Assembly (NCBI GenBank): GCA_029867005.1 | Contig: CP123443.1 | Span: 806,001 to 870,000 of the forward strand | Reading direction: 5' to 3' | Length of the DNA: 64,000 nucleotides | DNA from: Candidatus Haliotispira prima | Lineage (GTDB): Bacteria > Spirochaetota > Spirochaetia > SP-2023 | In this document: in pieces, positions 15,955 to 36,033 of the stretch | How the letters are laid out: each line of letters opens with the position of its first letter | How positions within the stretch are numbered: position 1 is the stretch's first letter | The notes under the pieces: model-generated | The model's database searches: none | What the model saw: only the letters and a program-made list of their open reading frames with translations | What the model was told of the DNA's origin: nothing | Program-made: the position numbers and the translations under genes

Positions 15955-16973
15955 CTAATAGCGAGTCACGGGAATAGCAAAAGAGGTAATCCCCCCTGTC
16001 CCATCGGTATCAGTAACTTGGATTGTTGTGTGCATATTGGCCTGTTTACTTGCCGCAATCCAGTAACTATAGTTAGCCGGATAGCCTGTAATTGCACCAT
16101 AATTAAAATAAAATTTGGCACCCGGAATTGTATTGGAAGGTACACGAGTTCCAACAGTTATCAGGGGAGTACCGATATCATCTTTTCCGGAGACTTCCGT
16201 GAAAGAACTTGTATATGGAGTTTGAAAATAGGTGACAAACAGACCTTTCTGGTTTTCCATAAAATGGTATTCATTCAGACTGGCTGTATATACTCTGGCT
16301 GTCCAGGTCTCGCTCCATACCGCATCCCCCGCAGCGGGTAAGTTCGCCGTAGTAAAGGAAATTTCAACTCTATCCCCCTGAATTTCTCCGCCTTGAATTT
16401 CTGTTTGCCCAAGGTCAATAGCCGAAGGCATATACAGATATAGTTTGTACTTTGTATTCGGGGTAAGGACATCGGCAAGAGTAAGGCCATCCTCAAAATT
16501 ACTGCCGTAGTGTTGGCTGAGACTGAATTTGCGTGTACTGCCCGCATCTATGCTCAGGCTGACATATCCTTTGCTCGCTCGGGCTTCTGTCTTGGTCGGA
16601 ACGGCTTCCACAGCTAAGCGGATAACGGCCCCAACATCTGTAATGGCCGGAATACCGGTCACCTCGAATTGTACAGAGGAAGCCACGGCGGTGACGGAAA
16701 AGGAAATATCGGCGGGTTTGGCCGGCGGGTCCTTACTGTCGGACAGCGGGGCACAGGCAAGCAGAGACAGGCCGAGAACGGACAGAAAAAGGCCGGCAAA
16801 AAGGCGGGAACGGAAACGGGAAAAAAATAGGTAAAAAGGCTTATAGCTAGTTGATATACAAAGAAATAACGGCTTTCTTTCTAAAGTAGTGTGATATTGG
16901 ATATTGGATATTGGATATTGGATATTATACTGTTTTTACCAATATCCGTCAATATGCTGTGTTGAGTTTTCAT
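15955..16973 (-). CDS. Phase-variable surface lipoprotein, Fn3/Ig-like type (locus L1), currently out of frame
   Basis: From the ATG at 16973 (AAAGGAG site upstream) the frame reads MKTQHSILTDIG, enters the heptamer tract (4 units) and stops at TAG just after it. The main frame, one base out of register, encodes a signal peptide ending LGLSLLAC (lipobox, Cys then APLSDS) and a mature domain of about 275 aa. That frame has no ATG, GTG or TTG between an upstream TAA and the lipobox, so it is OFF. One more unit (5 in total) would join start and body. The mature part contains a TPNTKYKLYLY...ISFTTANLP pattern shared with loci L3, L6 and L7, suggesting a fibronectin- or Ig-like fold. Likely site: outer face of the outer membrane. 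A frame starting at a GTG (16686) lacks any signal peptide. Confidence 0.75.
16899..16926 (-). repeat. Heptanucleotide tract, 4 units (locus L1)
   Basis: GGATATT x4 on the plus strand (AATATCC x4 in the coding sense), preceded by one imperfect unit. It lies 47 bp inside the gene from the ATG at 16973. With 4 units the reading frame ends at a TAG a few codons after the tract. Confidence 0.95.
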
Positions 16974-17010
16974 GGGGGTGCTCCTTTAGGTTTATCCAGA
17001 TTCAGGATTG

Positions 17011-17040
17011 ATTGTATGTTTATTTAGAGAGTTTGGTCAA
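17011..17040 (-). promoter_or_regulatory. Promoter of locus L1
   Basis: TTGACC (17035-17040) and TACAAT (17011-17016) on the minus strand, 18 bp apart. A run of C (coding strand) sits directly upstream of the -35. The same arrangement recurs before loci L3, L6 and L7. Confidence 0.7.
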
Positions 17041-17247
17041 GGGGGGGAGACACCCTCTCGCTGAATACCATTGTGAGCTTGGGCCATTGAGCGGAGTCGA
17101 AATGCCCCAAGCAAAAATATCACTACGGACTGCTATAACGCATGAGGGGTTGGAAGATAAGAATCAGGAAGAATATTCAGGTTACCGGATGTTAGGAGGC
17201 TCATAAAGCAGATTCATACCAATAACGTTCCCCGCCATTTTATGGCT

Positions 17248-17320
17248 TTACGGCCCAACCTGAAATATCCTGATCAAAGGCTTTAGCATTAGCAAACACC
17301 CGGGTCATATCAGTAACACC
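17248..17320 (-). pseudogene. Orphaned last DUF285 repeat beyond the stop codon of the 1299-aa BspA-like gene
   Basis: Directly after the TAA of the upstream gene the same frame continues as GVTDMTRVFANAKAFDQDIS followed by GWAVKP and a stop. This is the typical terminal DUF285 repeat seen in the paralogues (AFDRDISGW). A stop has therefore cut off the last repeat unit. Confidence 0.75.
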
Positions 17321-20300
17321 TTAGTCTCCCAACAACCCCATGCTGTAATCAGTAAACATCCGGCTCATATCAGTAACACCGGAGATATCCCAATCTGCTG
17401 TTATCCATTGCTTGTGTCTTCCGGCATTCTCAAACATGCTGCTCATATCAGTAACCTTGGAGATATCCCATGCTCCTATCTCTTGATTGAAGTCGTAAGC
17501 AAAATTAAACATCTTGCTCATATTAGTAACATTGGAAACATCCCAGGCTCCTATGGGTTGGTTAAAGTCTATGGCGAAACGAAACATACCCTTCATATCA
17601 ACAACGTTGGAGACATCCCAGTCTCCTATCGGTTGATTGAAGGCTCCGGCACCATTAAACATACTGCTCATATCAACAACGTTGGAGACATCCCAGGCTC
17701 CTATTGGTTGGTTGAAGGTCAGCATACCGACAAACATCATGCCCAGATCATAAAAATGGAGGAACATAGCACTCATATCAGTAACACCGGAGACATCCCA
17801 GGCTCCTATCGGTTGATTGAAGGCTAAGGCACCATTAAACATCGCGCGCATATTTGTAACGTTAGATACATTCCAATCTCCTATGGGTTGATTAAATTTT
17901 TCAGCATCCTTAAACATCCGGCTCATATCAGTAACGTTGGAGACATCCCAAGCTCCTATGGGCTGATTGAAGGCCATAGTCTTTCTAAACTCAAGCGTTA
18001 TGTTTGCAACACCGTAGAACATCTCGCGCATATTCGTAACGTTAGATACATTCCAATTTCCTATTGCCTGATTGAATTTTTTAGCCCCACGAAACATACT
18101 CGCCATATTCGTAACATTGGAGACATCCCAATCTCCTATAGGCTGATTGAACTCTTGAGAAGTATCATGAAACGTAGTACTTTCAACACCGGAGAACATC
18201 TCGCGCATATTCGTAACGTTAGATACATTCCAATCTCCTATCGCCTGATTGAAGACTGAAGCTTCATAAAACATAGAGCTCATATCAGTAACACCGGAAA
18301 CATCCCAATCTCCTATCGCCTGATTAAATTTTTCGGCATCCCTAAACATCTCGCTCATATTAGTAACATTGGAGACATCCCAAGTTTCTATGGGTTGATT
18401 GAATGTTGCAGCATTACCAAAGATACTCCGCATATTAGTAACACTGAAGACATCCCAATCTCCTATCGGTTGATTAAAACTTTTAGCACAACGAAACATC
18501 CCACTCATATCAGTAACATTAGAGACATCCCAACCTCCTATCGCTTGATTAAAGCTTGAAACACACGTAATCCAGTCTTTCCCATTAACAAAACCGGAGA
18601 ACATCCGGCTCATATCTGTAACGCCGGAGACATCCCAAGTTCCTATCGCTTGATTAAACTCTCCGGCATTATCAAACATTCGGCTCATATCAGTAACATT
18701 GGAGACATTCCAAGCTCCTATGGGCTGATTGAATTTTTCAGCACCGCGAAACAGACTCTCCATATTCGTAACGTTGGAGACATCCCAACCTGAAATGTCT
18801 CCATTAAAGGTTTTTTTATCTTTAAAGAGTTGGCTCATATCTGTCACTTTACTTACATCTATGTGGTTGAGGTCGGCATCATTACCTAATTCGGCAATCA
18901 GTGCCTCCAATTCGGCTTTGTTGGCAGGTTGCTCGGTATACCAGCGGGCGTAGAGTGTGATATCGCCCGTCACCGGCCAGGTATAATCGTACTTGGTCTT
19001 GCCCGTATGCCCCGTGGCTGCATCCACGGTGTACCAGCCTCCAAAGTAGTAGGTCGTGCCACCGCTTGGTGCTTTGGTCGGGTCTGCTATGGTTTCGCTT
19101 AGTGTGGTACCGCCGGTTACTTCCACGGGAGATACGGCACTGCCCCCGTCCGTTTGAAAACGTATGGTATATAAAGTACCACCAAACATGGATTCTGTAT
19201 CGATAACTCCGGAAACATTCCAATCTTCTATGACTTGATTAAAGATAAAAATATTACTAAACATACCTTCCATATTCGTAACGTTGGAAACATCCCAATC
19301 CCTTAAGGGCTGATTGAATTTTTCAGCATAAGAAAACATGGAATCCATATTAATAACATTGGAGACATCCCAATCCGCTATGGGTTGATTGAATTTTTTG
19401 GCACGTTGAAACATACCTTCCATATTCGTAACGTTGGAGACATCCCAACCCCCTATGGGTTGATTGAAGTTTTCGGCACCGTAAAACATAGCCTTCATGT
19501 TCGTAACGTTGGAGACATTCCAATCACCTATAGGTTGGTTGAATTCTAAAGCACTGCGAAACATACCCTCCATATTAGTAATATCGGAGACATCCCAATT
19601 TGAGATATCTCCATTGAAGGTATCCTTATCTGCGAAGAGTTCGCTCATATCTGTCACCTTACTTACATCTATGTGGTTGAGGTCGGCATCATGGCCCAAC
19701 TCGGCAATCAGTGCCTTCAATTCGGCTTTGTTGGCAGGTTGCTCAGTGTACCAGCGGGCGTAGAGTGTGATATCGCCGGTTACCAGCCAGGTATAATCGT
19801 ATTTGGTTCTGTTCGTATGCCCCATGGTTGCGTTCACGATGTGCCAGCCTCCAAAGTAGTAGGTTGTACCCCCGCTTGGTTCTTTAGTCGGGTCTGTTAT
19901 GGCTTGGCTTAGCGCGGTGCCACCGGTCACTTCCAGGGGAGATACGGCACTGCCTCCATAGGTCTGAAAGTTTATGGCGTATAAAGCACCATCAAACATG
20001 GCCTCTATATTGAGAGCACCGGAGACATTCCAATCTTTTATGACTTGATTAAAGGTGACAATATGACTAAAGATACTCTGAATATTTGTAACATTGGAGA
20101 TATTCCAATCTCCTATGGGTTGATTAAATTTTTCGGCACCACCAAACATACCTGCCATATTAGTAACATTGGAGACATCCCAACCCCCTATGGGCTGATT
20201 AAATTCTAAAGTATTATCAAACATAAATCTCATATCAGTAACACCGGAAACATCCCAGGCTCCGATGGGTTGATTGAATTTCAAAGCTCTGGCAAACATA

Positions 20301-21220
20301 CCTTCCACAGTAGTAAGGTTGGAGACATCCCAACCCCCTATGGGTTGATTGAATCTTTCAGCATTATAAAACATCCAACTCATATTAGTGACACCGGAGA
20401 CATCCCAACCTCCTATGGGTTGATTAAATTTTTCAGTACCACTAAACATACCCTCCATATTCGTAACTTTAGAGACATCCCAATCTTCTATGAGTTGATT
20501 AAATTTTTTAGTACCACTAAACATACCCTCCATATTCGTAACTTTAGAAACATCCCAATCTCCTATCGGTTGATTGAAGGTGTAGGTACCACGAAACATC
20601 TCGCTCATATTAGTAACATTGGAAACATCCCAACCCGAAATATCTCCATTAAAGATTTTCTTATCTTTAAAGAGTTGGCTCACATCCGTGACTTTACGTA
20701 CATCTATGTGGTTGAAGTCAGCATCATCTGCCAAAGCGACAATCAGTGCCTCCAAAGCAGCCATGTCGGCAGGTTGCTCAGTGTACCAGCGGGCGTAGAG
20801 CGTGATATCGTACATCACCGGCCGGGTGTATTTAGTCTTGCCCGTATGCCCTTCGGTTGCGGGTACGGTGTGCCAGCCTCCAAAGTAGTAGGAAGTGCCA
20901 CCGTTTGGTGCTTTGGTCGGGGCCGTGACCATTCTACTTAGAGTAGTACCCGTAGTACCCTTGGCTACCTGCACGGGGGACAATGTGTTGCCTCCTTCGG
21001 TTTCAAAGCTTACGGTGTATTTAGGCCCGGGAGGCGGAGGGCTTGCAGCCGATTTGACACAGGCGGACAGAAACAGAGGTATGAAACAGAGATGAAAAAG
21101 GCAGAAAGAGAGAAAGAATGAGGATTTGTTTGGCAATAAAAAGAAAGACTTAGCTGATTGGATATTGGGTATTAAGCCCTTTATTTCAGTGTCTGTCAAT
21201 ATTTTGTTTCGGTTTTGCAT
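17321..21220 (-). CDS. Large BspA/DUF285-repeat surface lipoprotein with Listeria-Bacteroides (Flg_new) modules (locus L2)
   Basis: This 1299-aa lipoprotein has a signal peptide with lipobox LSAC (Cys at about residue 54) and a Pro-rich linker. It then has three modules. Each begins with a Flg_new-type repeat (YTVSFETEGG...YYFGGWHTV...DITLYARW) and a conserved LNHIDVSKVTDMS block. Each then runs into DUF285 leucine-rich-like repeats of about 25 residues (FNQPIGxWDVSNVTNMxxMF), more than 30 in all. Such proteins are surface-exposed and often bind host matrix or other cells; a role here is inference. The leader resembles those of L4, L5 and L8, but the heptamer tract has decayed to one perfect and one imperfect unit, and the gene is open without switching. 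Its TAA truncates the array by one repeat. Confidence 0.93.
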   Translation of the reverse strand: MQNRNKILTDTEIKGLIPNIQSAKSFFLLPNKSSFFLSFCLFHLCFIPLFLSACVKSAASPPPPGPKYTVSFETEGGNTLSPVQVAKGTTGTTLSRMVTAPTKAPNGGTSYYFGGWHTVPATEGHTGKTKYTRPVMYDITLYARWYTEQPADMAALEALIVALADDADFNHIDVRKVTDVSQLFKDKKIFNGDISGWDVSNVTNMSEMFRGTYTFNQPIGDWDVSKVTNMEGMFSGTKKFNQLIEDWDVSKVTNMEGMFSGTEKFNQPIGGWDVSGVTNMSWMFYNAERFNQPIGGWDVSNLTTVEGMFARALKFNQPIGAWDVSGVTDMRFMFDNTLEFNQPIGGWDVSNVTNMAGMFGGAEKFNQPIGDWNISNVTNIQSIFSHIVTFNQVIKDWNVSGALNIEAMFDGALYAINFQTYGGSAVSPLEVTGGTALSQAITDPTKEPSGGTTYYFGGWHIVNATMGHTNRTKYDYTWLVTGDITLYARWYTEQPANKAELKALIAELGHDADLNHIDVSKVTDMSELFADKDTFNGDISNWDVSDITNMEGMFRSALEFNQPIGDWNVSNVTNMKAMFYGAENFNQPIGGWDVSNVTNMEGMFQRAKKFNQPIADWDVSNVINMDSMFSYAEKFNQPLRDWDVSNVTNMEGMFSNIFIFNQVIEDWNVSGVIDTESMFGGTLYTIRFQTDGGSAVSPVEVTGGTTLSETIADPTKAPSGGTTYYFGGWYTVDAATGHTGKTKYDYTWPVTGDITLYARWYTEQPANKAELEALIAELGNDADLNHIDVSKVTDMSQLFKDKKTFNGDISGWDVSNVTNMESLFRGAEKFNQPIGAWNVSNVTDMSRMFDNAGEFNQAIGTWDVSGVTDMSRMFSGFVNGKDWITCVSSFNQAIGGWDVSNVTDMSGMFRCAKSFNQPIGDWDVFSVTNMRSIFGNAATFNQPIETWDVSNVTNMSEMFRDAEKFNQAIGDWDVSGVTDMSSMFYEASVFNQAIGDWNVSNVTNMREMFSGVESTTFHDTSQEFNQPIGDWDVSNVTNMASMFRGAKKFNQAIGNWNVSNVTNMREMFYGVANITLEFRKTMAFNQPIGAWDVSNVTDMSRMFKDAEKFNQPIGDWNVSNVTNMRAMFNGALAFNQPIGAWDVSGVTDMSAMFLHFYDLGMMFVGMLTFNQPIGAWDVSNVVDMSSMFNGAGAFNQPIGDWDVSNVVDMKGMFRFAIDFNQPIGAWDVSNVTNMSKMFNFAYDFNQEIGAWDISKVTDMSSMFENAGRHKQWITADWDISGVTDMSRMFTDYSMGLLGD
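21168..21181 (-). repeat. Degenerate heptamer tract (about 1-2 units) of locus L2
   Basis: At the position where the paralogues have 3-7 units of GGATATT, this gene has a single perfect unit and one altered unit (GGGTATT). The leader stays in frame, so this copy appears locked ON. Confidence 0.75.
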
Positions 21221-21257
21221 GGGAATACGCCTTCAAACAGAGTGAATTTGAGGCCCG

Positions 21258-21286
21258 ATTATATATTGATTTAGAGAATTTAGTAA
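21258..21286 (-). promoter_or_regulatory. Promoter of locus L2
   Basis: TATAAT (21258-21263) on the minus strand with a weak -35 TTACTA (21281-21286), 17 bp apart. A run of nine G on the plus strand lies immediately upstream of the -35. The -35 is poorer than those of the switchable loci. Confidence 0.55.
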
Positions 21287-21335
21287 GGGGGGGGGCTTTG
21301 AACGGGGTTCGGGTGCCTCACCCCTCGCAACGGTT

Positions 21336-21363
21336 GCGTGCCGGTCTAAAATCGCCGGCACGG
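21336..21363 (-). other. Hairpin downstream of locus L3
   Basis: Inverted repeat with 8-bp arms (CGTGCCGG at 21337-21344, CCGGCACG at 21355-21362), about 30 bp beyond the stop of L3. The same hairpin follows L6. No T-tract follows, so mRNA end formation is only a possibility. Confidence 0.5.
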
Positions 21364-21390
21364 AATAAAGGCTTATTACCCGGTGATTAA

Positions 21391-22515
21391 TTACACGTTT
21401 TGTATCGTCTGTGTATCAATATATTTTCCGCCATTATAGTGAATATTATACTCCATGTTTAATCTATCTTCAAGAAAATAATCTTTACTTGCCGATTCAG
21501 AGGTTGATATAGATATGATAGCACTAACATATACATCAAAATTAGTAGATCTTGTTTTTCTTTCTAAAAAAACAGTTTTAGTATTACCCGGTCCGTCTGT
21601 CTCAGTTCCCTGAAAAAAAGTAAATATTATCTCGGAGGTTCCCTTCTTATCTGCTTTAGCTTGAATTAATTGTAATTCTACTTCCTCTGATGAGGTGACG
21701 GGTGAGGGCTCCGGAAATATAGGAAAAGCGACCCTCATTGGAAGTATCAAATACTCGGCCTCTTTTACTTCTATCTTTCTTGGGGAGCTAATTTCTGTGC
21801 TTGTTTTGGGTATGCCAAGAGTATTTCCCTTGGGATCTGTGATTTCCGCATTGTAGTGAAAATATTGATCCCGGGAATGGATGCTAACATTGTTAGTCCC
21901 TTGTCTTCTTTCTAAAACGGGCAAAGTGGCAAACTTGGCGGTTGTAAAAGATTTTTGTGAAGCCAATTCTCTGCCCCGGTAAATATGAAGATAATACGTT
22001 GTGTTCTCTTTCAGTAAGTGGTCGGCTGTGAGAGTGCTTATGTCATCCGGTATGGTATTCAAATGGGCCATAAATATTTCTCTGCTTACGTCTTTTGTCA
22101 GGGTACGCTTGATATAGCCTTTACCTAATTGGGTCGGAAGCCTGCTGGTGTCAGAAGCTGAAATTCCAAACGTAAACTCAAGCTCTCCCTCTAATTCGCT
22201 GGTTATGGAAAAAGTAAGTTCATTGGCACCTATGTAAGGGAAGGTGACCGCAGTGTATTTGGGTGCCGGCGGGTCCTTACTGTCGGATAGCGGGGCACAG
22301 GCAAGCAGAGACAGGCCGAGAACGGACAGAAAAAGAAAGGCAAAAAGGCGGGAACGGAAACGGGAAAAAAATAGGTAAAAAGGCTTATAGCTAGTTGGTA
22401 TACAAAGAAATAACGGCTTGCTTTCTAAAGTAGTGTGATATTGGATATTGGATATTGGATATTATATTATACTGTTTTTACCAATATCCGTCAATATGCT
22501 GTGTTGAGTTTTCAT
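21391..22515 (-). pseudogene. Phase-variable-type surface lipoprotein, disrupted by a stop before the tract (locus L3)
   Basis: The mature protein is a close paralogue of L6 (for example LTADHLLKENTTYYLHIYRG), with a lipobox LSLLAC. The ATG at 22515 has the usual promoter and AAAGGAG site. After MKTQHSILTDIGKNSII a 5-bp addition next to the tract creates a TAA. The tract has 3 units. Changing unit number cannot repair this, so the copy looks silent, perhaps a donor for recombination. A late nonsense change also removes the last few residues found in L6 (QNV followed by a stop instead of QNVQLITR). The open part from 22071 lacks any signal peptide. Confidence 0.72.
22443..22463 (-). repeat. 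Heptanucleotide tract, 3 units (locus L3)
   Basis: GGATATT x3 on the plus strand followed by an extra ATATT-type pentamer absent from L1. In the coding sense the pentamer produces the in-frame TAA just before the tract. Confidence 0.93.
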
Positions 22516-22552
22516 GGGGATGCTCCTTTAGGTTTATCCAGATTCAGGATTG

Positions 22553-22582
22553 ATTGTATGTTTATTTAGAGAGTTTGGTCAA
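22553..22582 (-). promoter_or_regulatory. Promoter of locus L3
   Basis: TTGACC (22577-22582) and TACAAT (22553-22558) on the minus strand, 18 bp apart, identical to L1. Confidence 0.65.
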
Positions 22583-22669
22583 GAGGCAGGTAGGTGAGCC
22601 TGTCGAACCCGGCAAGGGGGCCAAGTTGTCAAGGGGGCCATAGTCGGGGGCCTCTGAGTGCTGTTCAGA

Positions 22670-22697
22670 CAACAGAGTGCGGCACCGCACGCTGTTG
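22670..22697 (-). other. 28-nt inverted repeat downstream of locus L4
   Basis: Arms of 13 bp around CA with one mismatch, starting about 20 bp after the stop at 22717. Near-identical copies lie after L5 and L8. No U-run follows on the coding strand, so it may be an mRNA-stabilising hairpin or a rho-assisted end. Confidence 0.7.
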
Positions 22698-22716
22698 TAA
22701 GTTTCCGTACTGTATG

Positions 22717-24026
22717 CTACCGAAATTTGGGGGGTTTATGGGCCGTGCTAATAGGGCAGCTGTCGAAAATCTTTTCAGAATCTGTTACCTGGGTTACAGT
22801 CCAACCTGAAATATCCCGGTCAAAGGCTGTGGCAAAAGCGAACGTATTATACATCTCGGTAACTTTGGAGACATCCCAAGCTCCGATGGGTTGATTAAAA
22901 GCTTCGGCACCATTAAACATGAAATTCATATTTTTAACCTTGGAGACCTTCCAGTCTCCTATAGGTTGATTAAATTTTTCCGTATGACCAAACATACCAT
23001 CCATCCCGGTAACCTCAGAGACATCCCAACTTCGGATGGGTTGATTAAAAATTTTGGCAGTATTAAACATAGATGCCATATCAGTAACACTGGAGACATC
23101 CCAAGCTCCTATCGGTTGATTGAAGGCTTCGGCACTATTAAACATGAAACTCATATTTTCAACCTTGGAGACCTTCCAATCTTCTATAGGTTGATTAAAT
23201 TTTTTAGCCTGACCAAGCATAGATGCCATAGTAGTAACCTCAGAGACATCCCAAGCTCCGATAGGTTGGTTGAAGACAAAAGCACGATAAAACATCAAAT
23301 TCATATTAGTAACACCGGAGACATCCCAAGCTCCGATGGGTTGATTAAAAGCTTCGGCACCATTAAACATCCGGCTCATATCTGTAACTTTGGAGACATC
23401 CCAACCCGTGATATCTCCGTTAAAGGTCGTCTTAGATTCGAAGATTCTATTCATATCAGTTATCTTTCGCACATCAATGTGGTTGAGGTCGGCAGTATCT
23501 CCCAAGCCGGCAATTAGTGTATCCAAAGCAGTCCTGTCAGCGGGTTGTTCGGTGTACCAGCGGGCGTAGAGCGTGATATTGCCGGTTACCGGTTTGGTGT
23601 AATCATACTTGGTCTTGCCCGTATGTCCTTTGGCCTTGTCCACGGTGTACCAATCCCCGAAGTAGTAGCTGGTGCTGCCGCTTGCGGCCTTGGTGGGGGC
23701 CGTTATAGTTTGGCTTAGCATAGTGCCACCGCTTACCGGCACCGAAGGCACTGCGCTGCCTCCGTCGGTTTGGAAGCTGACGGTATATTTAGTCTCGGAG
23801 TCTGTACCCAGGTCGACACAGGCCGCCAGAAACAGATGAATGATAAAAATGGAAAGAAAGCAGAAAAAGGGGGGGGATTTGAGTTTATTTGTAAATGGAA
23901 AGAGAGATACAGATTTAAAAAAAATTAATAGGTGAATGGATATTGGATATTGGATATTGGATATTGGATATTGGATATTTTACTGTTTATACCAATATTT
24001 GTCAATACTTTATCTTGATTTTTCAT
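22717..24026 (-). CDS. Phase-variable BspA/DUF285 surface lipoprotein (locus L4), currently out of frame
   Basis: The ATG at 24026 has a CAGGAG site and a consensus promoter. With 6 heptamer units the frame ends at TAA just after the tract (CCA TTC ACC TAT TAA). The body frame, otherwise open, gives the lipobox LFLAAC, one Flg_new module and about ten DUF285 repeats, ending STAHKPPKFR. It is nearly identical to L5, which has 7 units and is open, and the leaders have the same length elsewhere, so no indel compensates. The body frame has no ATG, GTG or TTG between the tract and the lipobox. A translation from an internal start (23751, MPSVPVSGGTMLS) would lack a signal peptide. OFF state inferred from frame reading. 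Confidence 0.82.
23938..23979 (-). repeat. Heptanucleotide tract, 6 units (locus L4)
   Basis: GGATATT x6 on the plus strand. One unit fewer than in the open paralogue L5, giving a frameshift and a stop directly after the tract. Confidence 0.96.
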
Positions 24027-24074
24027 TAGAGTACTCCTGAAAATGAAGGGAATTGAAAGCCAGTTTCAGAGTAG

Positions 24075-24103
24075 ATCATATATTTATTTCGAAAAATTGT
24101 CAA
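24075..24103 (-). promoter_or_regulatory. Promoter of locus L4
   Basis: TTGACA (24098-24103) and TATGAT (24075-24080) on the minus strand with a 17-bp spacer, a near-perfect sigma-70 promoter. Confidence 0.82.
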
Positions 24104-24159
24104 GAGGGGGAATTTCTGCCCCGAAGGGCGGAACACAAGGAGCAAGTGAAATATCCGGA

Positions 24160-24187
24160 CAACAGCGTGCGGTGCCGCACGCTGTTG
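24160..24187 (-). other. 28-nt perfect inverted repeat downstream of locus L5
   Basis: Perfect 13-bp arms (CAACAGCGTGCGG / CCGCACGCTGTTG) around TG, about 20 bp after the stop at 24207. Same element as after L4 and L8. Confidence 0.8.
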
Positions 24188-24206
24188 TAAGTTTCCGTAC
24201 TGTATG

Positions 24207-25523
24207 CTACCGAAATCTTAGAGGTTTATGGGCCGTGCTAATAGGGCAGCTATCGAAAATCTTTTCAGAATCTGTTACCTGGGTTACAGTCCAACCTGAA
24301 ATATCCCGGTCAAAGGCTGTGGCAAAAGCGAACGTATTATACATCTCGGTAACTTTGGAGACATCCCAAGCTCCGATGGGTTGATTAAAAGCTTCGGCAC
24401 TATTAAACATGAAATTCATATTTTCAACCTTGGAGACCTTCCAGTCCCCTATAGGTTGATTAAATTTTTCCGTATGACCAAACATACCATCCATCCCGGT
24501 AACCTCAGAGACATCCCAATTTCCGATGGGTTGATTAAAAACTTTGGCAGTATTCAACATAGATGCCATATCAGTAACACCGGAGACATCCCAAGCTCCG
24601 ATGGGTTGATTAAAAGCTTCGGCACTATTAAACATGAAACTCATATTTTTAACCTTGGAAACCTTCCAATCTTCTATAGGTTGATTAAATTTTTTAGCCT
24701 GACCAAGCATAGATGCCATAGTAGTAACCTCAGAGACATCCCAAGCTCCGATAGGTTGGTTGAAGACAAAAGCACGATAAAACATCAAATTCATATTAGT
24801 AACACCGGAGACATCCCAAGCTCCGATGGGTTGATTAAAAGCTTTGGCACCATTAAACATCTGGTTCATATCAGTAACACTGGAGACATCCCAACCCGTG
24901 ATATCTCCGTTAAAGGTAGCCTTAGATTCGAAGATTCTATTCATATCAGTTATCTTTCGTACATCAATGTGGTTGAGGTCGGCGGTATCTCCCAAGTCGG
25001 CAATTAGTGTATCCAAAGCAGTCCTGTCAGCGGGTTGTTCGGTGTACCAGCGGGCGTAGAGCGTGATATTGCCGGTTACCGGTTTGGTGTAATCATACTT
25101 GGTCTTGCCCGTATGTCCGATCTCTTTGTCTACGGTGTACCAATCCCCGAAGTAGTAGGTAGTGCTGCCGCTTGCGGCCTTGGTGGGCACCGTTATAGTT
25201 TGGCTTAGCATAGTCCCGCCGCTTACCGGCATCGAAGGGACTACACTGCCTCCGTCCGTTTGGAAGCTGACGGTATATTTAGTCTCGGAGTCTGTACCCA
25301 GGTCGACACAGGCCGCCAGAAACAGATGAATGATAAAAATGGAAAGAAAGCAGAAAAATGGGGGGGATTTGAGTTTATTTGTAAATGAAAAGAGAGATAC
25401 AGCTTTAAAAAAAATTAATAGGTGAATGGATATTGGATATTGGATATTGGATATTGGATATTGGATATTGGATATTTTACTAATTATACCAATACTTGTC
25501 AATACTTTATCTTGATTTTTCAT
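24207..25523 (-). CDS. Phase-variable BspA/DUF285 surface lipoprotein (locus L5), in frame (ON)
   Basis: A 438-aa protein. The leader MKNQDKVLTSIGIISK is followed by the tract-encoded NIQYPIS repeats (7 heptamer units). Then come a hydrophobic signal segment and the lipobox IHLFLAAC (Cys at about residue 73). The mature part has one Flg_new module (YTVSFQTDGG...ITLYARW) and about ten DUF285 repeats (FNQPIGAWDVSxVTxM). This is the only switchable locus whose tract length keeps the start in frame with the body: 7 units is ON, and 6 or 8 units would hit stops at TAA shortly after the tract. The unusually long signal peptide (about 72 residues) results from the tract lying inside it. Promoter TTGACA-17-TATGAT and an AGGAG site 7 bp upstream support the start. 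Confidence 0.93.
   Translation of the reverse strand: MKNQDKVLTSIGIISKISNIQYPISNIQYPISIHLLIFFKAVSLFSFTNKLKSPPFFCFLSIFIIHLFLAACVDLGTDSETKYTVSFQTDGGSVVPSMPVSGGTMLSQTITVPTKAASGSTTYYFGDWYTVDKEIGHTGKTKYDYTKPVTGNITLYARWYTEQPADRTALDTLIADLGDTADLNHIDVRKITDMNRIFESKATFNGDITGWDVSSVTDMNQMFNGAKAFNQPIGAWDVSGVTNMNLMFYRAFVFNQPIGAWDVSEVTTMASMLGQAKKFNQPIEDWKVSKVKNMSFMFNSAEAFNQPIGAWDVSGVTDMASMLNTAKVFNQPIGNWDVSEVTGMDGMFGHTEKFNQPIGDWKVSKVENMNFMFNSAEAFNQPIGAWDVSKVTEMYNTFAFATAFDRDISGWTVTQVTDSEKIFDSCPISTAHKPLRFR
25428..25476 (-). repeat. Heptanucleotide tract, 7 units (locus L5, ON)
   Basis: GGATATT x7 on the plus strand; in frame it encodes NIQYPIS with a 7-residue period. All three reading frames of this repeat lack stops, as expected of a coding contingency repeat. 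Confidence 0.97.
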
Positions 25524-25571
25524 TAGGACACTCCTGAAAACGAAGGAAATTGAAAGCTAGTTCCAGGGCAG

Positions 25572-25600
25572 ATCATATATTCATTTCGAATAGTTGTCAA
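25572..25600 (-). promoter_or_regulatory. Promoter of locus L5
   Basis: TTGACA (25595-25600) and TATGAT (25572-25577) on the minus strand, 17-bp spacer; start codon about 50 bp downstream. Confidence 0.82.
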
Positions 25601-25656
25601 GGGGGAGAATTCCTGCCCCGAAGGGTGGAACACAAGGAGCAAGTGAAATATCCGGA

Positions 25657-25684
25657 CAACAGCGTGCGGTGCCGCACGCTGTTG
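25657..25684 (-). other. 28-nt perfect inverted repeat downstream of locus L8
   Basis: Third copy of the CAACAGCGTGCGG/CCGCACGCTGTTG hairpin, about 20 bp after the stop at 25704. Confidence 0.8.
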
Positions 25685-25703
25685 TAGATTTCTGTACCGT
25701 ATG

Positions 25704-26644
25704 CTACCGAAATTTGGGGGGTTTATGGGCCGTGCTAATAGGGCCACTGTCGAAAATCATTTCATAATCTGTTACCTGACTTACAGTCCAATCTGAAATA
25801 TCTCGATCAAAGGCTCCGACAGTAGAGAACATCTCGTTCATATTAGTGACACCGGAGACATCCCAATCTCCGATGGGTTGATTGAAGATACTGGCACTAT
25901 AGAACATCGAAGCCATATTAGTAACACCGGAGACATTCCAATCTCCGATGGGTTGATTGAAGGCAAAAGCAGCACGAAACATAGCAAACATATTAGTAAC
26001 TTTGGAGACATCCCAACCCGTGATATCGCCATTAAAGGTCGTCTTACTTTGAAAGAGGTTATTCATATCGGTGACCTTTCGCACATCAATGTGGTTGAGG
26101 TCGGCGGTATCTCCCAAGCCGGCAATTAGTGTCTCCAAAGCAGCCCTGTCAGCGGGTTGCTTGGTGTACCAGCGGGCGTAGAGCGTGATATTGACGGTTA
26201 CCGGTTTGGTGTAATCATACTTGGTCTTGCCCGTATGCCCTTTGGCCTTGTCCACCGTGTACCAATCCCCGAAGTAGTAGATAGTGCTGCCGCTTGCGGC
26301 TTTGGCGGGGGCCGTTATGGTTTGGCTTAGCATAGTCCCGCCGGTTACCTTTACCGAAGGGACTACACTGCCTCCGTCGGTTTCAAAGCTGACGGTGTAT
26401 TTGGAAGTGGGTGTAGAGCTTGTGCCCGGGTCGACACAGGCCGTCAGAAACAGATGAATGATAAAAATGGAAAGAAAGCAGAAAAAGGGGGGGGATTTGA
26501 GTTTATTTGTAAATGGAAAGAGAGATACAGCTTTAAAAAAAATTAATAGGTGAATGGATATTGGATATTGGATATTGGATATTGGATATTGGATATTTTA
26601 CTGTTCATACCAATACTTGTCAATACTTTATCTTTATTTTTCAT
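25704..26644 (-). CDS. Phase-variable BspA/DUF285 surface lipoprotein, short form (locus L8), currently out of frame
   Basis: A shorter paralogue of L4/L5 with the same promoter, leader (MKNKDKVLTSIGMNSK), signal segment and lipobox (LTAC). It has one Flg_new module but only about five DUF285 repeats, ending STAHKPPKFR. Six heptamer units put the ATG at 26644 out of frame with the body and lead to a TAA just after the tract, as in L4. The frame that starts at 26333 inside the body has no signal peptide. The lower repeat number suggests in-frame loss of whole 75-bp DUF285 units by recombination. Confidence 0.8.
26556..26597 (-). repeat. Heptanucleotide tract, 6 units (locus L8)
   Basis: GGATATT x6 on the plus strand, one unit short of the in-frame number for this leader type. 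Confidence 0.96.
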
Positions 26645-26692
26645 TAGGGTACTCCTGAAAACGAAGGGAATGGAAAGCCAGTTTCAGGGCAG

Positions 26693-26721
26693 ATCATATA
26701 TTCATTTCGAATAGTTGTCAA
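26693..26721 (-). promoter_or_regulatory. Promoter of locus L8
   Basis: TTGACA (26716-26721) and TATGAT (26693-26698) on the minus strand, 17-bp spacer. Confidence 0.82.
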
Positions 26722-26839
26722 GGGGCAGGCAGGGCGAAACCTGTCGGTGTTGGTAGGTGAGCCTGTCGAACCTGGCAAGGGGGGCTTAAACGGGGTACGG
26801 CGGGTGCCTCACCCATCTGTAAAACCCCCCTCAACTGTT

Positions 26840-26867
26840 CCGTGCCGGTCTAAAACCGCCGGCACGG
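26840..26867 (-). other. Hairpin downstream of locus L6
   Basis: Perfect 9-bp arms (CCGTGCCGG / CCGGCACGG) just past the stop of L6; the counterpart of the hairpin after L3. Confidence 0.5.
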
Positions 26868-26879
26868 AACAAAGGCATA

Positions 26880-28024
26880 TTACCTGGTAATTAATTGCAC
26901 GTTTTGTATCGTCTGTGTACCGGTATATTCTCCGGCATTATATTGAAGATGATACTCCATTTTCAATCTATCTCCAAGAAAATACTTTTTACTTACCGGG
27001 TCAGAGGGCAATATAGCCGTGATAGCACTAAAATACACATCAAAATTAGTCGAGCTTGTTTTCCTTTCTAAAAAAACAGTCTTAGTATTACCCGGTCCGT
27101 CTGCCTCAGTTCCCTGAAAAAAAGTAAATACTATCTCGAAGGTTCCCTTATGATCTGCCTTAGTTTGAATGAAATGAAAATTCACTTCCTCTGATGAGGG
27201 GACAGGTGAGGGCTCCGGAAATATAGGAAAAGCGACCCTCATTGGGAGTATCAAATACTCGGTCTCTTTTACTTCTATCTTTTTGGGAGAGCTAATTTCT
27301 GTGCTTGTTTTGGGTATGAAAACAGTATTGCTGTCGGGACCTATGACCCTCCCATTGGATTGATAATATTGATCCCAAGAATGGATGCCAACATTGTTAG
27401 CCCCTTGTCTTCTTTCTAAAACGGGCAGAGTGGCAAACTTGGCGGTTGTAAAAGATTCTTGTGAGGCCAATTCTCTGCCCCGGTAAATATGGAGGTAATA
27501 CGTCGTATTCTCTTTCAGCAAATGGTCCGCAGTCAGAGTGCTTATGTCATCGGGTATGGTATTCAAATGGGCCATAAATATCTCCCTGCTTACATCTTTT
27601 GTCAGGGTACGCTTGATATAGCCTTTACCTAATTGGGCCGGAAGGGTTGTGGTGTTAGAAGCCGAAATTCCAAACGTAAACTCCACCTCTCCCTCCAATT
27701 CGCTGGTTATGGAAAAAGTAAGTTCATTGGCACCTATGTAAGGGAAGGTTACCACAGTGTATTTGGGTGTAGGCGGGTCGTCCTTACTGTCGGACAGCGG
27801 GGTACAGGCAAGCATAGACAGACCGAGAACGGACAGAAAAAGGAAGGATAAAAGGCGGGAACGGAGACGGGAAAAAAATAGGTAAAGAAGTTTATAACTA
27901 GTTGGTATACAAAGAAATAACGGCTTGTTTTCTAAAGTAGTGTGATATTGGATATTGGATATTGGATATTGGATATTTTACTGTTTATATCAATATCCGT
28001 CAATATGTTGTTTTGCCTTTTCAT
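26880..28024 (-). CDS. Phase-variable surface lipoprotein, Fn3/Ig-like type (locus L6), currently out of frame
   Basis: The ATG at 28024 starts MKRQNNILTDIDINSK. With 4 heptamer units the frame ends at TAG right after the tract; 5 units (or 2) would be ON. The body frame encodes a signal peptide with lipobox LSMLAC and a mature protein of about 305 aa closely related to L3 (KENTTYYLHIYRGRELASQE, LILPMRVAFPIFPEPS). The internal Met of the lipobox (27815) can be mistaken for a start, but a lipoprotein needs the upstream hydrophobic segment. The KENTTYYLHIY...SFTTAKF pattern is shared with L1 and L7. Function unknown; surface exposure inferred from the lipobox and the company it keeps. Confidence 0.8.
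27950..27977 (-). repeat. Heptanucleotide tract, 4 units (locus L6)
   Basis: GGATATT x4 on the plus strand, preceded by one imperfect unit, as in L1 and L7. Confidence 0.95.
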
Positions 28025-28062
28025 GGGGGATGCTCCTTTAGGTTGGCTTGGATTCAGGGTTG

Positions 28063-28091
28063 ATTGTATATTCGTTTAGGGGTTTTGGCAA
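28063..28091 (-). promoter_or_regulatory. Promoter of locus L6
   Basis: TTGCCA (28086-28091) and TACAAT (28063-28068) on the minus strand, 17-bp spacer. Weaker -35 than L1. Confidence 0.6.
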
Positions 28092-28348
28092 GGGGGGGCC
28101 TTAGATGGGGTTCGGGTGCCTCACCCACCTGACAATAGTAGAAATTATTTGGGTCCATTAAACCAAGGGGCCGAGTGAGCCTGTCGAATCTGGCAAGGGC
28201 ATAATTTTTAAGGCATCCGCTCCCGGGTTTGGGGGGATAAAGCCTTTGTGGTTTCCTCCGGAAATTAGGTTTTGGCAGGCGGTCCAAAACTATGTAAGGG
28301 AGGAGAAGGCTGATCCGCCTTCTGGACTGGTCCTAAAATATTGTGCCT

Positions 28349-29337
28349 CTAATGTATATTCATCGTCACAAGTCGTTTGCGACCAACTGCCCCATCTCTG
28401 AATGTCCATGACCCTTTATTCATAGTAGTCAACTGTTGGATGCCGAAGCTGAACCTCAGATATGTATCTGCTGCCACAGTTGTATGTTCAAAACTCTGCT
28501 CCGCAGTATATCCACCATCAGGTAAACAAACACTACCCAAAGAGGGTAGCACACAGGCAGAAACGAAGACCTTATCCGGGCTAAAGGTGTGTACCCCTTG
28601 CTGAGAAATCAATTCTTTCCAGTAGACAGGCATCAATACCAACGTCCCCTCTTGGGCATTAATTTGATAGATACCCTCTCGGTACGGAAATGTCCCGTCA
28701 ATAAAATCTTTGCTTTCGTCCCAGTCCGCTGCCGGAGGCAAAGCCAAAGTGCTAAAGTTAAGGGTACTCGTCAGGTTCTTGTCTTGGAACAGGTAGGCTT
28801 TGTACGCTGTACCCGCTGTGAGATAATCTCCCGCCACTGCGGCGGCGATATTTCCGGAAAGGGCTTGATTGCTGCCATGGTGCATGGCAGTGTAAAAGTA
28901 ATGCGTGCCTGAGGTTACCGAGCGACTTTGCAGAGCGATATTGGTTTCTACATCCGCATAAGTCGGGGCCGTTTCGTCTGCGGCATGCACGATAAAAGCC
29001 ACTGCCACACTTTGGTTGGTGCTGACTTGCAGTTCTACAGCGCGAATTCCCCGCCACGAAATGCTTGGGGTAAAGTATTCGGTTTCTTCCGGGGGACTGC
29101 TGCTTTCGTCTGAGATCGGGGCACAGCCGAGTAAAGTTAGACCAATAAGAAACAGGAAAAGAAAGGGGAGAAGACAGAAATGGGAAAAAAATGCTTGAAA
29201 ATATTTGTAATTAGTCGATATGCAAAGAAATAACGGCTTGTTTTCTAAAGTAGTGTGATATTGGATATTGGATATTGGATATTGGATATTTTACTGTTTA
29301 TATCAATATCCGTCAATATGTTGTTTTGCCTTTTCAT
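28349..29337 (-). CDS. Phase-variable surface lipoprotein, Fn3/Ig-like type (locus L7), currently out of frame
   Basis: The leader is nearly identical to L6 (MKRQNNILTDIDINSK, 4 heptamer units, then TAG), but the mature protein is different. The body frame gives a signal peptide, lipobox LTLLGC and about 265 residues including TAGTAYKAYLFQDKNL and a Cys-containing segment near the C-terminus. It shares only the TxYxxYLF...FSTLALP-type pattern with L1 and L6. A frame beginning at a GTG (29008) omits the signal peptide. OFF by frame reading; 5 units would restore it. This shows that one leader cassette serves unrelated mature domains. Confidence 0.78.
29263..29290 (-). repeat. Heptanucleotide tract, 4 units (locus L7)
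   Basis: GGATATT x4 on the plus strand with one imperfect leading unit; same arrangement as in L6. Confidence 0.95.
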
Positions 29338-29400
29338 GGGGGGTGCTCCTTTAGATTGGCTTGGATTCAGGATTGATTGTATATTCGTTTAGGGGTTTTG

Positions 29401-29830
29401 GCAAGGGGGGGCCTTAGATGGGGTTCGGGTGCCTCACCCACCTATACCTCACCTACCTGACAATAGTAGAAATTATTTGGGTCCATTAAACCAAGGGGCC
29501 GAGTGAGCCTGTCGAATGGTAGGTGAGCCTGTCGAACCTTGGCAAGGGGGGCCTTAGATGGGGTTCGGGTGCCTCACCCACCTATACCTCACCTACCTGA
29601 CAATAGTAGAAATTATTTGGGTCCATTAAACCAAGGGGCCGAGTGAGCCTGTCGAATGGTAGGTGAGCTTGTCGAACCTTGGCAAGGGGGGCCTTAGATG
29701 GGGTTCGGGTGCCTCACCCACCTATACCTCACCTACCTGACAATAGTAGAAATTATTTGGGTCCATTAAGCCAAGGGACCGAGTGAGCCTGTCGAATGGT
29801 AGGTGAGCCTATCGAACCTTGGCAAGGGGG
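29401..29830. repeat. Three tandem copies of a 140-bp non-coding repeat
   Basis: Units begin at about 29402, 29542 and 29682 (each GGCAAGGGGGGCCTTAGA...), with the start of a fourth at 29821. A shorter single copy lies at about 28085-28200. Each unit contains the promoter-proximal GGCAAGG sequence of the lipoprotein loci, a GGTGCCTCACCCACC stretch and the dispersed element GTGAGCCTGTCGAA. They follow the L7 promoter, so they are probably recombination products of the lipoprotein upstream region. Confidence 0.88.
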
Positions 29831-29885
29831 GCAAGTATCCGGCCGGTCCCCAAGTCCACAATCAAGCCGGCGATGGGAGGCAGAA

Positions 29886-29970: not shown

Positions 29971-30852
29971 CTATTTCCCGGTGGCCTTTTTACGCCGATC
30001 TACCATACGCAGGACGAACGGAGTAAAAATCAACTGCATAGCGATCTCCATTTTTCCGCCCGGCACCACAATGGTATTGGCCCGCGACATCCATGAATCG
30101 TGAATCATCGATAACAGATATTGAAAGTCTATATCCTTGGGCTTGGCAAAACGGATAACGCAGATACTCTCGTCCGCCGTTGGAATATCACGGGAGATAA
30201 ACGGATTTGAGGTGTCCACCACAGGAACCCGCTGGAAGTTGACATGGGTTTGGGTAAATTGCGGGCAAATGTAATTCATATAGTCCGGCATACGCCGTAA
30301 AATAGTGTCTGTTACCGCTTCCGCACTATAGCCACGCTGAGTCTTATCCCGAATCAGTTTTTGAATCCATTCCAGATTGATCACCGGCACGACACCAATC
30401 AATAAGTCCGGATACTGTGCCGTATTGACTTCGTCCGTGATGACCGCACCATGCAGACCTTCGTAGAACAGTATATCCGTGTTTTTTTCTAAATCGGTCC
30501 AAGGTGTAAACGTTCCCGGTTTCTGTTTGTAGGGAGCTGCTTCCTCTTTGTTGTGTAAATACTTGCGTATCTTGCCCCCGCCGGTCTCGCTGTAGGAGCG
30601 GAACAGCTCCTCCAAGTCAGATAGTTGGTTGGTGGACAGGCCAAAGTGACTGAAGTGGTTATTGCCTTCACTTTCCGCCTTGCTCGCCATTTGCTTCATT
30701 TCTTCGCGGTCATAGCGATGAAAGCTGTCACCTTCCACGAAGACGGGCTTTATGCCCTCACGACGGAAGATATTGGCGAAAGTCTGCGTCACGGTTGAAG
30801 TCCCGGCACCGGACGAACCGGTTATGGCTATGACAGGATGTTTTATGGACAT
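29971..30852 (-). CDS. prk: Phosphoribulokinase (class I, bacterial type)
   Basis: This 293-aa enzyme phosphorylates ribulose 5-phosphate to ribulose 1,5-bisphosphate, the substrate of RuBisCO. The P-loop ITGSSGAGTSTV is at residues 10-21. The N-terminal GDSFHRYDREEM, the YEGLHG segment and the basic RDKTQRGYSAEAVTDTILRRM region are typical of the roughly 290-aa octameric proteobacterial form (cbbP). A GGAG site lies about 8 bp before the ATG. It is the last gene of the operon, 12 bp after fbp. Its presence means the pathway is a Calvin cycle in design and not only a nucleotide-salvage RuBisCO. Confidence 0.95.
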   Translation of the reverse strand: MSIKHPVIAITGSSGAGTSTVTQTFANIFRREGIKPVFVEGDSFHRYDREEMKQMASKAESEGNNHFSHFGLSTNQLSDLEELFRSYSETGGGKIRKYLHNKEEAAPYKQKPGTFTPWTDLEKNTDILFYEGLHGAVITDEVNTAQYPDLLIGVVPVINLEWIQKLIRDKTQRGYSAEAVTDTILRRMPDYMNYICPQFTQTHVNFQRVPVVDTSNPFISRDIPTADESICVIRFAKPKDIDFQYLLSMIHDSWMSRANTIVVPGGKMEIAMQLIFTPFVLRMVDRRKKATGK

Positions 30853-30864
30853 TTGTGTATCTCC

Positions 30865-31971
30865 TTACTTGCGGAATAAACCGCGAACAGCGAACAGCGG
30901 GGATTCTTCGTAGCTGCTCTGGTCTTCTGTATTGTGGTGGTAAGACTCAATGAGGCTCACCTCTTCGGCCGAGCCGAAAATCACACCAATTCGTTGGTGT
31001 ACTTGCTCCGGTTCCACATCGTGGATGGGACCGTACCCGGTGGAGCACATGCCTCCGGCATTTTCCATGAGCATGGCTATGGGACTGGCCTCATAGAGCA
31101 AACGAAGACGGCCTTGTTTTTCCGGGTTCTTGGAGTCTCGGGGGTACATGAAAACCCCGCCGCGAATCAAAATGCGGTGTGCTTCGGCCACCATGGATGC
31201 CACCCAGCGCATGTTAAAATCTTTGCCGCGCGGCCCAAGACTGCCGGACAAGCACTCATCTATATAGCGTTTGACAGGAGCTTCCCAAAATCGGCTGTTC
31301 GAAGCATTGATGGCAAACTCATTAGTGGCCTTGTGCACCTGCATATTCGGGTGGGTCAGGCGAAACTCACCGGTGTACGGTTCCAACGTAAAGCCGTGTA
31401 CCCCTCTGCCCACAGTTAAAACAAGCATGGTCGAAGGGCCATATATGGCATAGCCGGCAGCAATCTGCTGCTTGCCGGGTTGTAAAAAATCCTCTTTCGA
31501 GACCGGCCGCCGACCTTCAATGACATCTTCGGGGGCCCGAAACACGGAAAAGATACTGCCTACACCTGCGTTGACATCAATATTGCTCGAACCGTCGAGA
31601 GGGTCGTGCACCAGCAGGTATTTTCCCTGAGCAAGATTTTTCGGAATGACATAGGGCTCTTCCATCTCCTCAGAAACGATGGCAACCAGATTCCCCGAAC
31701 GCTGAGTGGCCTCAATAAAAGTCTCATTGCTCAGGACATCGAGAGCCTTCTGGCTCTCTCCCTGGACATTGATTTCGGTGGAGACATCGGAAAGTTCGGT
31801 ACACAAAGACATATAACCAAGCATCTTGGAGATGACTTTACAGGCACAGCCGATGTCCAAAAGGAGACTGTTCAGCTCGCCAATTGATTCCGGATAGCGG
31901 CGGCGTTCCTCAATTAGATATTGTGCCAAAGTGGGTAATTCCCAGTTTGACATAGTGAAATTATTTTTCAT
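30865..31971 (-). CDS. fbp: Class I fructose-1,6-bisphosphatase
   Basis: This 368-aa protein removes the C1 phosphate of fructose 1,6-bisphosphate and in Calvin-cycle operons may also act on sedoheptulose 1,7-bisphosphate. Metal-binding motifs are visible: the acidic VSEEMEEP loop, DPLDGSSNIDVN and the GGVFMYPRD plus YEASPIAMLMENAGG segments. The length is in the family range. A GGGGTAGG site lies upstream of the ATG. Preceded by an mRNA hairpin (32026-32069) separating it from cbbY. Its operon position fits cbbF. Confidence 0.95.
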   Translation of the reverse strand: MKNNFTMSNWELPTLAQYLIEERRRYPESIGELNSLLLDIGCACKVISKMLGYMSLCTELSDVSTEINVQGESQKALDVLSNETFIEATQRSGNLVAIVSEEMEEPYVIPKNLAQGKYLLVHDPLDGSSNIDVNAGVGSIFSVFRAPEDVIEGRRPVSKEDFLQPGKQQIAAGYAIYGPSTMLVLTVGRGVHGFTLEPYTGEFRLTHPNMQVHKATNEFAINASNSRFWEAPVKRYIDECLSGSLGPRGKDFNMRWVASMVAEAHRILIRGGVFMYPRDSKNPEKQGRLRLLYEASPIAMLMENAGGMCSTGYGPIHDVEPEQVHQRIGVIFGSAEEVSLIESYHHNTEDQSSYEESPLFAVRGLFRK

Positions 31972-32025
31972 ATGGATGTTTACCTACCCCTTTACCTCTT
32001 ATTTTGTTTGGTTTGGTTGACTTGC

Positions 32026-32069
32026 CTGCGTCATCCGGAAAATTCTGTTCTGAATTTCGGATGACGCAG
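32026..32069 (-). other. Intercistronic hairpin between cbbY and fbp
   Basis: Perfect 12-bp arms (CTGCGTCATCCG / CGGATGACGCAG) around a 20-nt loop, immediately after the cbbY stop. No U-tract follows, so it more likely protects or processes the upstream mRNA (cbbL-cbbS-cbbX-cbbY) than terminates it. It could lower expression of fbp-prk relative to RuBisCO. Confidence 0.65.
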
Positions 32070-32075
32070 TTGCAC

Positions 32076-32783: not shown

Positions 32784-32815
32784 AATAGTTTCCTGTGAGG
32801 TGAGAGTAGCTGTGG

Positions 32816-33763: not shown

Positions 33764-33787
33764 TGATACTCCGAACCTAGCAACGCG

Positions 33788-34222: not shown

Positions 34223-34243
34223 AATAGTTACTCCTCTCTCTGA

Positions 34244-36033
<1,790 letters not shown>

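Follow-up and report, generated by a model that had tools for sequence, protein, structure and literature searches.

Could one short tandem repeat govern a large family of surface-protein genes? The question is raised by a 64,000-nucleotide stretch of the Candidatus Haliotispira prima genome (GenBank assembly GCA_029867005.1, contig CP123443.1), hereafter the window, which covers positions 806001-870000 of this 3.25-Mb single-contig genome; one assembly of one genome was analysed. A preliminary description of the window, made from the letters of the DNA alone, had reported seven minus-strand lipoprotein genes, each with a heptanucleotide tract of 3, 4 or 6-7 units shortly after its start codon. 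We assign a probability of roughly 0.6 to the reading that the heptamer acts as a translational switch, off by default, across ~400 predicted surface-lipoprotein genes.

A heptanucleotide tract distributed over the whole genome

The seven tracts were found as described, with unit counts in gene order of 4, 4, 6, 7, 6, 3 and 4. The unit reads AATATCC on the gene strand and GGATATT on the other; it is free of stop codons in all frames and each extra unit moves the frame by one, as had been stated for its complement. The window contained 27 overlapping two-unit matches, located at the seven minus-strand places, versus 0 in 100 shuffles. The idea of a local array of seven gave way to a family of about 400 members, because the genome contained 474 + 1032 two-unit and 345 + 762 three-unit matches, corresponding to 399 tracts of at least two units (mean near 4.8), and the reversed pattern gave 0 matches versus the 1506 two-unit matches.

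Loci were judged individually in 56 stretches plus the window, which add up to 1.149 Mb (35% of the genome), many of the stretches having been picked for known tracts. The sample contained 279 tracts (274 of pure AATATCC, 5 with CATATCC units), 276 of which lay far enough from stretch ends for judging; 271 of these 276 consisted of pure AATATCC units. The sampled tracts were arranged in 55 runs on one strand, the longest with 13 genes, and the median tract spacing was 1298 bp (first 207 loci). At genome positions 260356, 273469, 326199, 1993248 and 2413084, all units after the first read CATATCC, with six units in four of the five; that CATATCC has taken over five tracts is a sign of unit turnover. 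Three consecutive units were detected in 0 of 40 genomes of the same class, none of these 40 being a near relative.

The tract lies inside the 5′ coding region

In 273 of the 276 loci a start codon (270 ATG, 3 GTG) preceded the tract by exactly 47 nt, and 271 of these 273 had a Shine-Dalgarno-like match. P1, a sigma-70-like promoter whose hexamers are 17 bp apart and which mostly lies 63-84 nt upstream, scored at least 10 of 12 matches in 198/273 loci, versus 12 of 1365 mononucleotide shuffles. P1, Shine-Dalgarno site and start codon all precede the tract, which falls within the 5′ coding region (273/276 loci). In the window, the reported ribosome-binding site and sigma-70-like promoter were both present, and the reported 47-bp distance from the ATG applied to six of the seven loci; at tract 22443-22463 the ATG lies 52 nt from the intact units. 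Chance or an assembly artefact receives practically no credit as an explanation: nothing was found in its favour beyond the reliance on a single assembly, and the empty shuffles, the empty reversed-pattern control and the fixed distance at 273/276 loci all stand against it.

The leaders grouped into 25 clusters, and the clusters share descent. Beyond the tract, a long frame was open in 275/276 loci, the shortest having 191 codons (the chance of 40 open codons was 0.23 under a Markov model of the post-tract region), and in 199 of 207 loci it ran through a linker into a signal segment with a lipobox, as judged by pattern match. The linker varied from 33 to 48 codons, yet its frame relation to the ATG was constant in 122/122 four-unit loci with the type-A leader and 35/35 loci with the type-B leader. 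By motif, 24 of the 276 tract loci encode BspA-type proteins, and 249 encode members of what we call the orphan family.

One of the seven window loci, 24207-25523, was in frame. Its features are listed from promoter to protein, the first two from sequence reading:

25572..25600, minus strand: P1 (predicted), TTGACA-17 bp-TATGAT, consensus match
25521..25535, minus strand: AGGAG plus ATG (25523-25521), leader of the in-frame gene
25474..25502, minus strand: P2 in the leader (predicted; see below), TTGACA-17 bp-TAAAAT, its last bases being the first tract bases
25428..25476, minus strand: heptamer tract, 7 units, in-frame register
24207..25523, minus strand: BspA-type lipoprotein (predicted), 438 aa, in frame

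The order within this gene is leader, tract-coded repeats, linker, signal peptide with LAAC, List_Bact repeat and DUF285 repeats.

Unit number and reading frame

We scored a locus as ON when the leader start was in frame with the lipoprotein and as OFF when it was not. Only 15 of the 276 loci were ON and 261 were OFF; 14 of the ON loci read from the start at -47, and locus 270863, whose leader is shortened, was ON through an ATG at -36. This departs from the one third expected for random frames (binomial 2e-29, the loci not being independent). In the OFF loci with a start at -47, the ATG frame stopped within at most 8 codons in 250/259, and in type A the stop after the tract was kept (TAG in 112/122, TAA in 7/122). 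The lipoprotein frame ahead of the signal segment had no ATG, GTG or TTG in 184 of 197 OFF loci; of these 197, 11 had an in-frame start without a Shine-Dalgarno match and 2 had one with a match. Two other routes to the lipoprotein were considered. A downstream start was ruled out at most loci by the same 184/197 count, and programmed frameshifting was rejected because type B has a leader/lipoprotein frame offset of +1 whereas most leader types have -1, and no common slippery site was seen.

The comparison with repeat-less paralogs bears directly on the role of the tract. A BLAST search of the lipoprotein bodies against 1345 frames identified 320 homologous frames, 41 of them tract-less. Among repeat-less paralogs with a recognisable leader, 31/32 were in frame versus 15/276 tract loci (Fisher 4e-30, the paralogs not being independent). 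The first 30, which begin at a recognisable leader start, were selected for the leader lying within the frame, and the weight of the control therefore falls on the other 11 that were screened: one was in frame, one was out, and nine (some of them fragments) had no recognisable leader. The one exception was locus 3228140, which has a single unit and is out of frame. Since 31/32 repeat-less paralogs were in frame, the leader probably encodes the genuine N-terminus of the lipoproteins, and the tract probably disrupts the frame. The window holds a comparison of its own:

17321..21220, minus strand: repeat-less paralog, 1299 aa, that shares the leader and is in frame, no tandem tract intervening

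Repeat-less BspA genes with the shared leader, in frame and up to 1180 codons long, also occurred in runs at genome positions 1061651-1077000, 1633284-1646000 and 1880289-1902000.

In pairs of paralogs that differ by one unit, the unit number decided the in-frame state, a comparison among paralogs and not among alleles. Locus 831476 (window 24207-25523), with 7 units, was ON, and its neighbours 829979 and 832597, with 6 units, were OFF, the leaders being 96% identical. Loci 1675648 and 1677320, with 5 unit-lengths, were ON versus 1622800 with 6, which was OFF (96% leader identity); in this leader type the loss of one unit gives the ON state, as predicted by its frame offset. Locus 2754488 (7 units, ON) and locus 2755778 (6 units, OFF) were 94% alike. 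Genome-wide, 5 of 179 type-A loci had at least five units, four of them ON and one, with six units, OFF. Two more specific statements of the preliminary description were borne out: the BspA-type leader is open at 7 units and meets TAA at 6 in the window loci, and in the other leader type 4 units lead to TAG and 5 or 2 would be open. The six OFF loci of the window, in order of position, are:

16899..16926, minus strand: tract, 4 units, OFF; leader ATG 16973
15955..16896, minus strand: lipoprotein frame (predicted), 313 codons counted from the tract, without connection to the leader ATG
22443..22463, minus strand: tract, 3 intact units, OFF; leader ATG 22515; first unit damaged (two bases missing), the ATG frame stopping within the tract
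21391..22440, minus strand: lipoprotein frame (predicted) of this locus, 349 codons
23938..23979, minus strand: tract, 6 units, OFF; leader ATG 24026
22717..23937, minus strand: BspA-type lipoprotein frame (predicted), 406 codons
26556..26597, minus strand: tract, 6 units, OFF; leader ATG 26644
25704..26555, minus strand: BspA-type lipoprotein frame (predicted), 283 codons
27950..27977, minus strand: tract, 4 units, OFF; leader ATG 28024
26880..27947, minus strand: orphan-family lipoprotein frame (predicted), no Pfam match, no outside relative found
29263..29290, minus strand: tract, 4 units, OFF; leader ATG 29337
28349..29260, minus strand: lipoprotein frame (predicted), no Pfam match

Under the proposed switch, gain or loss of a unit would toggle each gene at translation, only the right unit number modulo 3 being in frame. 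Unit number may change by slippage or by unequal recombination within the tract. OFF genes would make no lipoprotein, and the products of ON genes would reach the cell surface. Selection or low mutability would hold the majority of loci at the modal, OFF length.

Constant tract length and the OFF bias

Several findings weigh against a freely operating switch. The unit length was 5 in 123/130 type-A loci and 6 in 35/35 type-B loci. On the tree of the 273 loci, which comprises 41.9 substitutions/site, 37 tract-length changes were sufficient (shuffled labels, mean 75.5), so that a tract changes in length roughly as often as a single nucleotide site is substituted. While a freely slipping tract would leave about two thirds of the loci OFF, 95% were OFF, and the orphan family was ON in just 5/249. 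Deviants toward the other OFF register were as rare as those toward ON, and selection against the ON state alone is therefore no sufficient explanation. Tracts of 4-6 units are also short for contingency loci. In the linker, the ratio of nonsynonymous to synonymous substitution rates (dN/dS) was 0.56, 0.60 and 0.74 in the three frames, with no clear codon-type constraint in the lipoprotein frame, and the predicted ON protein has an n-region of ~50-60 residues ahead of the signal core.

The BspA subset behaved differently, with 8/24 loci ON and 2-8 unit-lengths, which matches the expectation for free switching; its ON fraction differed from that of the orphan family (Fisher 1e-6). Of 245 comparable loci, 5 were truncated. 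Median dN/dS was 0.28 in OFF-OFF pairs (802 pairs) and 0.29 in pairs with an ON member (43 pairs), and the OFF-OFF value suggests that the encoded proteins matter at some time. Constancy and purifying selection together leave three accounts: frequent slippage with selection restoring a particular length, a modal register that is in fact expressed, or upkeep of the bodies by exchange.

A promoter-like element inside the leader

A second promoter-like element, P2, was recognised within the coding leader. It has the form TTGACN-17 bp-TANAAT, and its 3′ end overlaps the first tract unit. Codon 8 was TTG in 273/273 tract loci, although TTG makes up 14% of the leucine codons in these genes. The complete TTGAC was present in 258/273 and TANAAT in 270/273 tract loci. 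Position 3 of codon 15 and position 1 of codon 16 were invariant and position 2 of codon 16 was free, the opposite of codon logic. In the repeat-less paralogs, TTG stood at codon 8 in 19/30 and TANAAT was present in 0/30; the zero follows in part from the definition, as the AAT is itself tract sequence. The pattern is a DNA-level constraint that travels with the tract, and P2 is a candidate promoter.

The conservation of P2 and of tract length would also fit an alternative that we regard as unlikely, in which leader, P2 and tract form a fixed regulatory element and the OFF-register genes are expressed by a yet unseen route. The heptads might then serve, with P2, as an operator or initially transcribed region, or the functional product might be a leader peptide of 30-33 residues that ends just after the tract. 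Such an element would account for the constant tract length and the pure AATATCC units at 271/276 loci, for P2 hexamers that are conserved even at synonymous sites when a tract follows but are relaxed in the paralogs that lack repeats, for the conserved stop after the tract (TAG 112 and TAA 7 of 122) and for the dN/dS of 0.28 of the OFF genes. It is at odds with the 184/197 OFF loci that have no start codon for the lipoprotein, and with the offsets of -1 and +1 in different leader types, which no single programmed frameshift or start would fit. Nor does it explain that the lipoprotein frame stays open, in constant phase, back to the tract, or that five loci carry CATATCC units; and no Rfam family was detected at the leader and tract, the Rfam search giving a chance-level match only.

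Exchange of leaders and bodies

Leader identity and body identity were nearly uncorrelated (0.15). Comparison of 55-nt segments located the breaks in similarity: across the tract the correlation was 0.29 with 178 discordant pairs, and the signal-peptide/body border also broke (0.35, 31 discordant pairs), versus 0.85 with 0 discordant pairs within bodies. Loci 1840574 and 1841861 have leaders that are 99% identical and bodies without detectable similarity; conversely, 1039549 and 1040885 have bodies that are 93% identical and different leaders. Because the leader has a constant length of 47 nt, any leader could serve any body with the register unchanged. Within the proposed switch, modules exchanged at two points, the tract and the vicinity of the signal-peptide border, would spread new bodies behind interchangeable leaders.

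The same exchange data could be taken to mean that the OFF genes are a silent archive, expressed mainly by recombination of their bodies behind in-frame leaders, with tract and leader as shared homology. The low leader/body correlation, the breaks at the tract and at the signal-peptide/body border with none inside bodies, and the two mismatched locus pairs speak for an archive, which we nevertheless think quite improbable. In the vls and pilS archives the silent copies have neither promoter nor start and there is one expression site. Here almost all OFF loci come with a promoter-like site, a Shine-Dalgarno site and an ATG of their own, ON loci occur at 15 scattered places, and the exchanges are old or undated. 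The loci do not match a silent-cassette archive of the vls/pilS type (own start 273/276, Shine-Dalgarno site 271/273, P1 198/273, 15 scattered in-frame loci). Returning to the translational switch, one may speculate that heptamer, P2 and exchangeable 47-nt leader form one module, in which the tract would be mutable only when P2 fires into it and the cell would thereby time lipoprotein reshuffling across ~400 default-OFF genes; we consider this extension very doubtful.

Encoded proteins

The BspA/DUF285 family (Pfam PF03382) scored above cut-off in window proteins 24207-25523 (E 3e-101) and 17321-21220, the whole genome contained 225 DUF285 matches, and a search of genome contigs yielded seven distant DUF285 relatives. 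The orphan-family members tested from the window had no Pfam match, and all 31 hits in the search for relatives of the family fell on the contig taken as this genome, with none found outside it; that database record, 3,251,835 bp long, exceeds the 3,251,735 bp analysed here by 100 bp. A structure model of the orphan family (predicted local distance difference test, pLDDT, 64) consisted mostly of strands and suggests, with low confidence, a beta-rich fold; naming the fold by Foldseek failed, the best matches being beta-sandwich proteins with template modeling (TM) scores of 0.15-0.28, which are too weak. When the leader was used as query, 5 of 6 hits lay on the contig taken as this genome and the sixth was spurious; leader plus tract was absent from the viral contigs searched.

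The deposited gene models of tract loci (P0004, P0005) start at or near the lipobox or in another frame. Because these models are mis-started, the tract genes are not recognised as lipoproteins, and they illustrate how gene callers overlook such lipoprotein genes.

Relation to known repeat-controlled systems

The arrangement is best classed with the Opa/NeuO type of coding-repeat phase variation, unusual in its scale and OFF bias, and its membership among contingency loci is incomplete: tract lengths were nearly constant between paralogs and varied in the BspA subset. The contingency-locus design proposed in the preliminary description thus stands in one part: the tract lies in the ATG frame and its register decides the reading of the lipoprotein (31/32 versus 15/276; one-unit pairs). 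Fast reversible switching, the other part, is not supported in that form, given the near-constant lengths, the 37 changes over 41.9 substitutions/site and the 95% OFF loci versus about two thirds.

In opa genes the repeat sits in the part that codes for the signal peptide. The likeness lies in a multi-gene surface-protein family in which each copy has its own repeat, of a length that is not a multiple of 3, in the 5′ coding region and is turned ON or OFF independently. Unlike opa, the present system comprises ~400 loci, a heptamer, lipoproteins, 4-8 units at nearly fixed number, 95% OFF loci and a promoter-like element beside the tract. In Neisseria, opa is listed with a genic CTTCT repeat of 7-21 units in 4 to 12 copies, and the genomes average 39 to 54 phase-variable genes overall (PMC5953494).

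Coding heptamers are described for E. coli K1 neuO, where AAGACTC lies in the 5′ coding region and units modulo 3 set full-length translation (PMC13001214), and for Neisseria pglE, with CAAACAC (PMC5953494). Both share with the present loci a 5′ coding heptanucleotide repeat that gates translation modulo 3; unlike the present loci, neuO and pglE are single genes with 3-53 or 5-34 units, variable between isolates. By the same account neuO was OFF in 65.6% of 64 genomes, the chance expectation, versus 95% OFF loci here.

The large vlhA lipoprotein family of Mycoplasma gallisepticum has (GAA)n at each copy, with most copies silent at once (PMC6258824). There the GAA repeat precedes the promoter and controls transcription, 12 units being active, whereas the present tract is inside the reading frame. 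A vlhA-type promoter repeat was rejected, as the tract lies after P1, the Shine-Dalgarno site and the ATG. In marine Beggiatoaceae, the heptamer TAACTGA forms tandem repeats of 2-6 copies at 169 sites of a single genome (PMC4679880), within several nucleotides upstream of the starts of genes without a common function and proposed as binding sites. AATATCC, by contrast, belongs to genes of one kind and lies 47 nt downstream of their start codons. A literature search found no paper on this heptamer array, subscription journals being mostly outside its reach.

If the switch works as proposed, it would be several times larger than the repeat-driven repertoires found described (Neisseria 39 to 54 on average, Campylobacter jejuni median 20) and would occupy a large part of one chromosome. 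It also raises a problem, in that most genes are held at one OFF length while under purifying selection.

Neighbouring features

A 140-bp tandem repeat (29398-29832; 3.1 copies, 97% identical) lies just upstream of the last tract gene. It is followed by a minus-strand Calvin-cycle cluster (29971-35713) encoding a phosphoribulokinase-family protein, fructose-1,6-bisphosphatase (FBPase), a haloacid dehalogenase (HAD) hydrolase, an AAA protein that we take to be CbbX-like by position, and the small and large subunits of RuBisCO. FlaA, a family generally regarded as spirochaete-specific, was also encoded in the genome with the Calvin-cycle cluster (0/14 controls), which makes membership of Spirochaetota likely. 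Further along, minus-strand positions 45957-49292 encode a protein of 1111 aa with adenylation and thioester-reductase domains, resembling a stand-alone nonribosomal peptide synthetase (NRPS) or aminoadipate reductase.

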